Below, piece after piece: positions 48,725-53,805 of a stretch of 64,000 nt of DNA. The stretch is from the NCBI GenBank assembly GCA_021325635.1, contig JAJPGV010000051.1, positions 1 to 64,000 on the forward strand, written 5' to 3'. Positions within the stretch are counted from its first letter, which is position 1. Every line of letters starts with the position of its first letter. The notes below the pieces were generated by a model, which did no database searches, was not told the origin of the DNA, and saw nothing but the letters and a program-made list of their open reading frames with translations. Both the position numbers and the translations under genes were made by a program. This stretch comes from Chloroflexota bacterium (GTDB lineage Bacteria; Chloroflexota; JAJPGV01).

Positions 48725-49684
48725 GTGCCAACAACCGACATTCTGTTCGTCCGGCACGCCGACGTCCACAACCCGGACAACGTGTTCTACGCGCGGCTGC
48801 CGCGGTTTCGGTTGAGCGAGCAGGGCGTGAAGGACGCAGACATCACTGCCCAGGCGCTGCTCGAGGAGCCGCTGGCGGCCATCTACACCAGCCCGATGCT
48901 GCGAGCGAAGCAGACCGCGCGGGTCATAGCTCGGCTGCACCCTCGGGTGCCGGTTGTCGAGAGCAGGCTGCTGCTCGAAATCAAGACGCATTACCAGGGC
49001 GAGCGCTGGGCCAGCATGCCTCGTCACCCCGACTACTACGATTCGACCTCCGGCGACGAGACCGTGGCCCAGGTGTTCGCCCGCATGCAGCGGCTGATGT
49101 TTCGCCTGATCGAGCGCTACCCCGGACAGAGCGTGGTCTGCGTCAGCCACGGGGATCCGATCAAGATCCTGCGCATGGGTTATCTCGGCCGGCCGCTCAC
49201 GCGAGATTCGGCCCACGAGCCCGATCCTGCCAAGGGGTCCATTACCCGCTTCCGCTGGACCGATCCCTCAGCGCCGCCGGTCATTACGCAGCTCGAGCCC
49301 CATACCGGTCGCTACCTCGAGGGATACTGGGAACGGGTCGGCAGCCGATCCGAGGTGCAGCCGGGTCAGATGAAACCGGCCACCGTCGAAGGCCAGCCGG
49401 TGCTGATGGCCAACGTCGACGGGACGATCTTCGTGATGACCGATCATTGCGGCCACATGGGCAGCCTGCTCCACCAGGGCAGGCTCGAAGGCAAAACCGT
49501 GACCTGCCCGCTGCACGAGAGCCAGTTCGACGTCGAAAGCGGCCAGGTGGTGCGTGAGGCGCAGCATGCGCGGGCGTTGCGCTCCCGGCTGGATGGCCGG
49601 CCGCTGCAAAAGCTGAAGACGGAGCCCCGCCGCACGTACGACGTCCGCCTGCAAGGCGACGACGTGTTCGCCAGGATTCGCTAA
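48725..49684 (+). CDS. histidine phosphatase fused to a Rieske [2Fe-2S] domain
   Basis: In the 319-residue protein, residues 1-190 are a phosphoglycerate-mutase-like histidine phosphatase: FVRHADV with catalytic H11, TSPMLRAKQTARVIAR, and VSHGDP with the second His, H142. Residues 205-319 are a Rieske ferredoxin domain. The cluster ligands C242 and H244 (DHCGHMG) and C261 and H264 (TCPLHES) have the C-x-H-x16-C-x2-H spacing. There is no frameshift or internal stop between the halves. The combination suggests redox control of a phosphatase, or a phosphatase tied to an electron-transfer partner. TAAAAT at 48710-48715 ends nine bases before the GTG. It diverges from tilS. Confidence 0.92.
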   Translation: MPTTDILFVRHADVHNPDNVFYARLPRFRLSEQGVKDADITAQALLEEPLAAIYTSPMLRAKQTARVIARLHPRVPVVESRLLLEIKTHYQGERWASMPRHPDYYDSTSGDETVAQVFARMQRLMFRLIERYPGQSVVCVSHGDPIKILRMGYLGRPLTRDSAHEPDPAKGSITRFRWTDPSAPPVITQLEPHTGRYLEGYWERVGSRSEVQPGQMKPATVEGQPVLMANVDGTIFVMTDHCGHMGSLLHQGRLEGKTVTCPLHESQFDVESGQVVREAQHARALRSRLDGRPLQKLKTEPRRTYDVRLQGDDVFARIR

Positions 49685-51503: not shown

Positions 51504-52199
51504 ATGCCTACCGAGGTCGTCGAGGACTATCTCGACCAGATCTACCTGATGGAGCAGAACGGCCTCAAGGTCATCAGCGCTCGCCTGGCTGAGCGCATGC
51601 ACACGGCTGTGCCAACCGTCACCGAGACGCTGCGCAGAATGGTCCGCGAGGACCTCATCGCGGTGAACGAGCGCAAAGAGGTACGGCTCACCGTTCGCGG
51701 TCGCGACGTGGCCGAATCCCTGGTCCGCCGCCATGCCCTGTCCGAACGGCTGCTGACCGACATCCTGGGGCTCAGCTGGGTCGAAGCCCATGCCGAGGCG
51801 CACAAGTTTGAGCACATCATCTCACCCAAAGTCGAAGCCCGGCTGATGGCTCTTCTAGGCAATCCTGATACCTGTCCGCACGGCAACCCAATCCCGGGAA
51901 CCGGGTCCATGGCGCAGCCCCGCGGCACGGCCCTATCACAGGTGGATCGGCCCGGCCGATACCACATCGTGCGCGTGCTCGAGGACGCCGAAAGCAACGT
52001 CGATCTCATGGCCTACATCGAGCAGCGGAACCTCAAGCCGGGTACCGGCGTGCGCCTGCTCGAGCACGTGCCATTCGAGGGGCCCACGCTGATAGAGGTC
52101 GAAGACGATGGCGAGCAGCATTCGCTCGGCCGGGCCGTGGCCGATGCCATTTTCGTCACGCCCGATTCCCCCGACGGGCGCAGTCTTGACGAACGTTAA
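51504..52199 (+). CDS. DtxR/MntR family metal-dependent repressor
   Basis: The 231-residue protein has an N-terminal winged helix (AERMHTAVPTVTETLRRMVR), a dimerisation domain (RRHALSERLLTDILGLSWVE, FEHIISPKVEARLMALLGNP, CPHGNPIPG) and a C-terminal SH3-like FeoA domain from about 150. DtxR metal ligands are partly changed. The position of Met10 in DtxR is Asp here (EDYLDQIY, as in MntR), and the Cys102 position is His in EAHKFEH. An iron-type operator and the FTR1 permease lie directly downstream, so iron or manganese control of uptake is expected. The iron box is placed to act on the ftr1 promoter. Confidence 0.92.
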   Translation: MPTEVVEDYLDQIYLMEQNGLKVISARLAERMHTAVPTVTETLRRMVREDLIAVNERKEVRLTVRGRDVAESLVRRHALSERLLTDILGLSWVEAHAEAHKFEHIISPKVEARLMALLGNPDTCPHGNPIPGTGSMAQPRGTALSQVDRPGRYHIVRVLEDAESNVDLMAYIEQRNLKPGTGVRLLEHVPFEGPTLIEVEDDGEQHSLGRAVADAIFVTPDSPDGRSLDER

Positions 52200-52214
52200 A
52201 AGTTAGGTTAGCCT
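52186..52214 (+). promoter_or_regulatory. promoter of the FTR1 gene
   Basis: TTGACG at 52186-52191, in the last codons of the regulator gene, is separated by 17 bases from TAGCCT at 52209-52214. The -10 is inside the DtxR-type box, so metal-bound regulator would exclude polymerase. Confidence 0.45.
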
Positions 52215-52221
52215 AAAACCA
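52203..52221. promoter_or_regulatory. DtxR/IdeR-type iron box
   Basis: TTAGGTTAGCCTAAAACCA matches the 19-bp DtxR/IdeR consensus (TTAGGTTAGSCTAACCTAA) at 15 positions; the first 14 bases are exact. It begins three bases after the regulator stop codon and ends 54 bases before the FTR1 ATG. Confidence 0.8.
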
Positions 52222-52224
52222 CGG

Positions 52225-52240
52225 GTAAGCCGGGGCTTAC
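52225..52240 (+). other. hairpin in the FTR1 leader
   Basis: GTAAGCC and GGCTTAC are perfect 7-bp arms with two bases between them. It follows the iron box in the short untranslated leader. It could stabilise the message or end transcription from the regulator gene. Confidence 0.4.
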
Positions 52241-52275
52241 GCAAGGCCCTCGGGAATACAACAGGTGGTTTGGGC

Positions 52276-53805
52276 ATGTCGGTTCGAGTGTTCGCGGCGC
52301 TGGCGCTGATCTCTGTCGTCATTCTGGGGGCGCCCATGGCGGCCCTGGCGCAGTCCACGACTGCCGCCCAGGACGTCAAGGCCCTGAGCGCGCACGTCGA
52401 TGCGGCGCTGAGCCAGCTGCACGCTGGAAACGTGGCGCAGTCCGCGAGCGAATACGACGCGTTCGAGCAGGGCTGGCCCACCATCGAACGAGCCGTGCGT
52501 ACGCAGGATCGCGATCTCTATCGCCAGATCGAGGCGGGCATGACTGACAGCAAGGCTGCCTTCACCGCGCAGCCAGCCGACCCCGCTCGTATCGACACCG
52601 CCCTCGATGCGCTGCAAGCCAGCACCAATACGTTTGTCACCCGTTACAGCTCGGCCGCAGGGGGAGCAGCGGCAGCCGAGCCAACCGCGGTCCCGAACGG
52701 CATGTCCGGACAGCTGCGGTACCTCGATACGGCGCAGCAGCGCATCGCGGCCAACGACGCGGCCGGCGCCGCGGCCCAGATCAAGGCGTTCATCGCCGGC
52801 TGGCCCGAGGTCGAAGGGACGGTTGCCACCAAGGCGCCGGAAACGTACACCCGAACCGAGAATGAGATGGCCCAGGCCTACGGCTACCTGACGTCGACGC
52901 CCCCCGCGCTCTCTCAGGCCGCGGCCGTGATCGGCGACATGCAAACGAGCCTGAGCGCCTTTGCCGGCCCCACGGTGCAGTACGGCGTTTTTGACGCAGC
53001 CATCATCCTGCTGCGCGAAGGGTTCGAGGCGCTGCTGGTGTTTGCCGCCCTGCTGGCCTTCCTCAAACGCTCCGGCAATGGCGCCAAGCAGACCTGGGTG
53101 TGGATGGGAGGCGGCGCCGGCTTGGCGCTGAGCGTCGTCATCGCCGTCATCGTCAACGTGGCCTTTGCCAAGGCGGGCGGCTCGAACCGAGAGCTGCTGG
53201 AAGGCGTGACCGGCCTGGTCGCGGCCTGCATGCTGGTGTGGATGATGTTCTGGCTGCACAGCAAGTCGAACGTCAGCACCTGGAACCGTTACATCTCGCA
53301 CCAGACCAGCCGGGCGCTGGCTACCAACAGCCTGCTATCCCTGGCGGCCATCGCCTTCCTGGCGGTGCTGCGCGAGGGAGCAGAGACCGTGCTGTTCTAC
53401 GTGGGTATCGCGCCGGCTATCAATACCTCGGATCTGCTGCTCGGGCTAGGCGCCGGAGCCGCCGGGCTGGCCGTCGTGGCCACGCTGATGCTCGCCGTCG
53501 GCGTGCGTATTCCCATTCGGCCCTTCTTCCTGCTGACCAGCGTGCTGGTGTTCTTCCTGGCCTTCAAGTTCTCGGGCATGGGAGTGCATTCGCTGCAGGT
53601 GGCCGGCAAGCTGCAGGCGCATACGCCGGGCTTCCTGCCGAGCATGGACTTCTTCGGCGTGTTCCCAACCTGGGAGACGACCATCGTCCAGATGGTGCTG
53701 GTGATCGGCACCGCCGCCGGCTTGGCGCTGACCCGCCACCATGAGGAGGCGCCGGCTGTGGCCAGCTCACAGGCTGAGACGAGCGGCGTTCCCCGCACCG
53801 CCTAG
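52276..53805 (+). CDS. FTR1 family iron permease
   Basis: ATG at 52276 is chosen because AGGTGG lies seven bases before it. The 509-residue protein has a signal peptide (VFAALALISVVILGAPMAAL), an extracellular helical region to about residue 235, then seven membrane helices. Two REXXE iron motifs are present: REGFE in LLREGFEALLVF and REGAE in LREGAETVLFYVG. In relatives such as EfeU/Ftr1 these Glu residues carry Fe3+. No copper oxidase or EfeB partner gene is adjacent; the large N-terminal domain may replace EfeO. Control by the neighbouring DtxR-type box is likely. Confidence 0.95.
   Translation: MSVRVFAALALISVVILGAPMAALAQSTTAAQDVKALSAHVDAALSQLHAGNVAQSASEYDAFEQGWPTIERAVRTQDRDLYRQIEAGMTDSKAAFTAQPADPARIDTALDALQASTNTFVTRYSSAAGGAAAAEPTAVPNGMSGQLRYLDTAQQRIAANDAAGAAAQIKAFIAGWPEVEGTVATKAPETYTRTENEMAQAYGYLTSTPPALSQAAAVIGDMQTSLSAFAGPTVQYGVFDAAIILLREGFEALLVFAALLAFLKRSGNGAKQTWVWMGGGAGLALSVVIAVIVNVAFAKAGGSNRELLEGVTGLVAACMLVWMMFWLHSKSNVSTWNRYISHQTSRALATNSLLSLAAIAFLAVLREGAETVLFYVGIAPAINTSDLLLGLGAGAAGLAVVATLMLAVGVRIPIRPFFLLTSVLVFFLAFKFSGMGVHSLQVAGKLQAHTPGFLPSMDFFGVFPTWETTIVQMVLVIGTAAGLALTRHHEEAPAVASSQAETSGVPRTA

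Follow-up and report, generated by a model that had tools for sequence, protein, structure and literature searches.

A gene in a Chloroflexota genome joins a histidine phosphatase to a Rieske iron-sulphur domain within one protein, and this phosphatase-Rieske fusion is a real, rare protein design that recurs in two further, deep-branching members of the phylum. The gene lies in the 64,000-nucleotide stretch of DNA analyzed here, referred to as the window. What is new is the combination of domains; both domains are already well known. Rieske clusters function in quinol oxidation, in oxygenases, and in the small subunits of arsenite oxidase and nitrite reductase, and covalent attachment to a phosphate-ester hydrolase, conserved as it is here, would be a new setting for them. 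No published description of a phosphatase-Rieske fusion was found in open-access full text, a body of literature in which subscription papers are mostly absent.

The coding frame begins with GTG and its only stop codon is the terminal one (49682-49684), which bears out the single uninterrupted frame of 319 residues described in a first-pass annotation of this DNA. The residue numbers assigned there to H11, H142, C242, H244, C261, and H264 are all exact, and the histidine phosphatase plus Rieske architecture is upheld by clear margins over the Pfam cut-offs for both domains, namely 93 bits versus 21.7 for PF00300 (residues 6-180) and 60.6 bits versus 20.3 for PF00355 (match over residues 202-280). 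The G+C contents of the three codon positions are alike in the phosphatase (0.67/0.45/0.85) and Rieske (0.71/0.44/0.86) domains, indicating that the frame is coding on either side of the junction. Other strands and frames at this locus also hold long overlapping frames, as is typical for G+C-rich DNA. We propose that the product is a two-domain soluble protein, with the features collected in Table 1.

Table 1. Positions in the window of the fusion gene, its domains, and its conserved residues.
Feature	Position	Strand	Basis or conservation
Fusion gene, 319 residues	48725..49684	+	Collinear counterparts in G024 and G001
Histidine phosphatase branch 1 domain, residues 6-180	48740..49264	+	PF00300 E 2.4e-26; PhoE 1h2e
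R10-H11, RH catalytic motif	48752..48757	+	Invariant in 3 fusions and aligned unfused relatives
R60	48902..48904	+	Invariant in 3 fusions
E85	48977..48979	+	Invariant in 3 fusions and aligned unfused relatives
H142, second catalytic histidine (SHGDP)	49148..49150	+	Invariant in fusions and aligned unfused relatives
Linker, residues 181-201	49265..49327	+	Poor conservation; 25-44% identity among fusions
Rieske ferredoxin domain, residues 202-319	49328..49681	+	PF00355 E 1.4e-16; 2qpz
First ligand pair C242-G-H244	49448..49456	+	Invariant in 12 aligned Rieske domains
Second ligand pair C261-P-L-H264	49505..49516	+	Invariant in 12 aligned Rieske domains
Insert of ~20 residues before the last two strands	49565..49633	+	Alignments

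Relatives were sought in 400 genomes of the same phylum. The same domain order was found in two of them, here called G024 (41% identity, E 1e-73) and G001 (39% identity, E 6e-65), as full-length, collinear matches far beyond chance in which both domains again pass the Pfam cut-offs. R10, H11, R60, E85, H142, and the four Rieske ligands are invariant in all three fusions. The first-pass annotation had allowed that the fusion might prove unique to this assembly; its recurrence disposes of that suggestion. It also argues against an artefact of assembly or sequencing that joined two adjacent genes, to which we give a negligible chance: although the assembly of the window genome is a draft broken into 63 contigs, the presence of these landmarks in collinear order, with a similar linker length, in two other, separate genomes excludes a frameshift or a false join. 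G024 and G001 belong to one class, of which three genomes were sampled (the third, in which no fusion was found, is ~57% complete), and the window genome is the sole one sampled for its own, different class. At least two class-level lineages therefore carry the fusion. A full-protein scan of genome contigs returned Rieske proteins only and no additional fusion, and no place in the plasmid records covered 80% of the fusion query.

The N-terminal half has the residues of a branch 1 histidine phosphatase (R10, H11, R60, and H142), reading RHA where RHG is usual in the motif. We take H11 to be the phosphorylated nucleophile and R60 presumably to be the phosphate-pocket arginine, and E85 is, judging by its position, probably the general acid/base. 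In a whole-protein model computed with AlphaFold2 from a 24-sequence alignment (mean pLDDT 94.1), residues 3-195 superpose on PhoE (1h2e) with a Z of 24.6 and an rmsd of 2.1 over 188 aligned residues, and the phosphatase half matches the phosphoserine phosphatase 4ij5 with a Z of 23.7 (both VIA-align 2). From the conservation of this catalytic set and fold we infer that the phosphatase half is catalytically active. Its solved relatives act on phosphoserine, glucosyl-3-phosphoglycerate, and flavin-type phosphates (RosC), and they also include a riboflavin-precursor enzyme, 9mmh (PMC12051542 offers a comparison for such phosphatases). Scores fall short of the NCBIfam equivalog or subfamily cut-offs for PspA phosphoserine phosphatase (54.7/350 bits), CobC (55.5/162.9 bits), the MSMEG_4193 family (48.6/203.85 bits), and archaeal dPGM (62.6/225 bits), so that no substrate can be assigned from family membership.

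The C-terminal half contains all four cluster ligands named in the first-pass annotation, in the arrangement CxH-x16-CxxH. The only cysteines of the protein are residues 139, 242, and 261, and the extra disulphide of bc1/b6f-type Rieske proteins is thus absent. Modelled alone (pLDDT 93.1, pTM 0.83), this half superposes on 2qpz, the ferredoxin of naphthalene dioxygenase (Z 19.0, rmsd 1.2, 103 aligned residues) and on BphA3 (Z 18.7); together with the lack of disulphide cysteines, the 2qpz match identifies a dioxygenase-type Rieske ferredoxin fold. It does not resemble a Rieske non-heme iron oxygenase, since the Pfam search finds no catalytic iron domain beyond the Rieske domain, which forms the C-terminus; PF00300 and Rieske families are the only matches of the whole protein. 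An insert of ~20 residues, the least confident stretch of the models (pLDDT 73-83), also occurs in the other two fusions and in certain free-standing Rieske proteins.

Among the three fusions, the Rieske halves share 30-37% identity and the phosphatase halves 45-58%. The four ligands nevertheless fall among the 24 positions invariant in the Rieske halves (p ~0.0013 for random placement), and they make up four of the seven invariant columns in an alignment of 12 diverse Rieske domains. Because these sequences were collected by similarity, which favours such columns, the invariance is support for, rather than proof of, cluster binding. On this sequence evidence the Rieske half probably carries a [2Fe-2S] cluster held by C242, H244, C261, and H264. 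The linker is partly predicted as strands (lowest-block pLDDT 83), and the whole-protein pTM of 0.74 leaves the relative placement of the two domains uncertain.

The same phosphatase also exists on its own. About 30 more of the 400 genomes match the phosphatase half alone, with a best identity of 51%, and these proteins end shortly past the phosphatase. Longer stretches read around eight of the unfused phosphatases contain no Rieske motif or gene, and searches through whole classes, centred on unfused relatives (29, 158, and 7 genomes, two of the searches taking in one and the same class) yield more unfused copies and no fusion. Since relatives carry the phosphatase without a Rieske domain, the latter most likely serves as an accessory redox module that is not needed for phosphatase chemistry.

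Phylogenetic analyses place the phosphatase of the window protein beside unfused members of one family, and those of G024 and G001 with a different unfused protein. The three fusions are united in 0% of phosphatase-tree bootstraps, and a single clade is not rejected by the AU test (p 0.164). Most of the Rieske tree lacks resolution (AU test p 0.391); the insert common to the fusions and some free Rieske proteins suggests that the Rieske halves may share a general subfamily. Two separate fusions of like parts are possible, and so is a single fusion followed by losses.

Gene neighbourhoods differ between the loci. In the window, tilS, a phosphoribosyltransferase gene (hpt), and ftsH lie to one side of the fusion gene, and hsp20 and leuB lie to its other side. 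In both G024 and G001 a D-Ala-D-Ala carboxypeptidase gene lies directly upstream. No neighbour is common to the window and the other two fusion loci, and none of the three loci has an oxygenase or reductase gene beside the fusion. At one of these two loci, L043:4621-6704 (-), the carboxypeptidase gene shares its last 4 bases with the fusion gene, which suggests a single transcript. In both of these genomes a gene for a protein of 430-490 residues, at L042:3813-5105 (+) and L043:3012-4481 (+), is convergent with the fusion; the two copies are alike, and the L042 copy has no Pfam match. Further downstream in the window, past hsp20 and leuB, positions 51504-53805 (+) encode a DtxR-type iron-dependent repressor with a FeoA domain and then an FTR1-like permease with REGFE and REGAE motifs (identified by eye), probably an iron-uptake unit.

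We tentatively favour, at somewhat below an even chance, a reading in which the Rieske half, as a redox module, does the sensing for a phosphatase of small metabolites or tethers it. The conserved ligands, the confident models, the unfused relatives without Rieske domains, and the precedent of the ferredoxin ThnA3 argue for it. The PhoE/PspA-like N-terminal half would remove phosphate from a small metabolite by way of a phosphohistidine formed at H11, and the C-terminal half would bind [2Fe-2S] as a low-potential-type Rieske ferredoxin. We propose that the oxidation state of the cluster, or docking to a redox partner, would set the place or time of phosphatase action. Against an accessory redox module stand the variable linker, the uncertain domain placement, the lack of a conserved neighbour indicating a redox partner or substrate at the three loci, and the fact that the closest solved Rieske folds serve oxygenases and not sensors. 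These same folds and the best sequence matches, all dioxygenase ferredoxins, point to the nearest rival, a somewhat unlikely one, in which the Rieske half would carry electrons to a separate oxidoreductase or oxygenase that oxidises or reduces the substrate freed by the phosphatase, so that the fusion couples successive steps. Consistent with electron transfer, Rieske matches number 60 in the window genome, many of them in frames of oxygenase size, and G001 encodes a free Rieske ferredoxin whose gene adjoins a ferredoxin-reductase-like gene. However, that free ferredoxin and the fusion are the only two Rieske matches in G001 (~66% complete), which has no Rieske oxygenase; this weakens, without excluding, a role in feeding such an enzyme, as does the absence of oxygenase or reductase genes adjoining any of the fusions.

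In a further reading, which is quite unlikely, the Rieske fold would serve only for structure or docking and its cluster would take no redox part in phosphatase function. In its favour, unfused relatives do without the domain and the Rieske halves diverge faster than the phosphatase halves; against it, all three fusions have kept the four ligands despite that divergence. Oxidation-dependent control of a metabolite or a new electron-transfer-coupled reaction, the two roles suggested in the first-pass annotation, would both be compatible with the conserved ligands and the unfused relatives. The most specific version of the redox-module reading, a phosphatase on a small metabolite that is gated by the oxidation state of its joined Rieske cluster and was possibly acquired twice in the phylum, is unlikely to hold in full, and we know of no such redox switch in any histidine phosphatase. 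Were the cluster to gate activity, redox state and dephosphorylation would be tied directly. Both halves are small and soluble-looking and the unfused relatives provide a natural control, so the idea is easily testable.

Rieske domains are very numerous in G000, G184, and G037, with 60, 150, and 132 matches, respectively, mostly in oxygenase-sized frames. A second fusion from the same genome, at L005:628-1785 (+), has a membrane-type N-terminal region and a C-terminal Rieske domain. A tandem pair of free-standing Rieske proteins is encoded at L009:629-1363 (+) in an Actinomycetes MAG, and the second of the pair, which has a long insert, comes closest to the fused Rieske domain among the free-standing relatives found.

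PhoE/PspA-type phosphatases (1h2e and 4ij5) share the fold, the RH motif, the second histidine, and the phosphate-pocket arginine with the fusion; in contrast, they are 23-26% identical to it and have no Rieske domain of their own. Unfused phosphatases of the same phylum (e.g., G184 and G301) are closer, at ~51% identity and with the shared signature RHxxVHNPxxxxYGRLPRxxLS, but end soon after the phosphatase, with no adjacent Rieske gene read. The dioxygenase Rieske ferredoxins (NdoA 2qpz, BphA3 2e4q, and toluene dioxygenase 3dqy) match the C-terminal half in fold (Z 18.5-19.0, rmsd 1.2), in CxH-x16-CxxH ligands, and in lacking extra disulphide cysteines, whereas the fused domain has its ~20-residue insert before the last strands and a covalently attached phosphatase. 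Finally, ThnA3, the Rieske ferredoxin of tetralin dioxygenase, is likewise proposed to report redox state (PMC4814904); unlike the fusion, it is a separate protein that acts on a regulator, with no enzyme joined to it.
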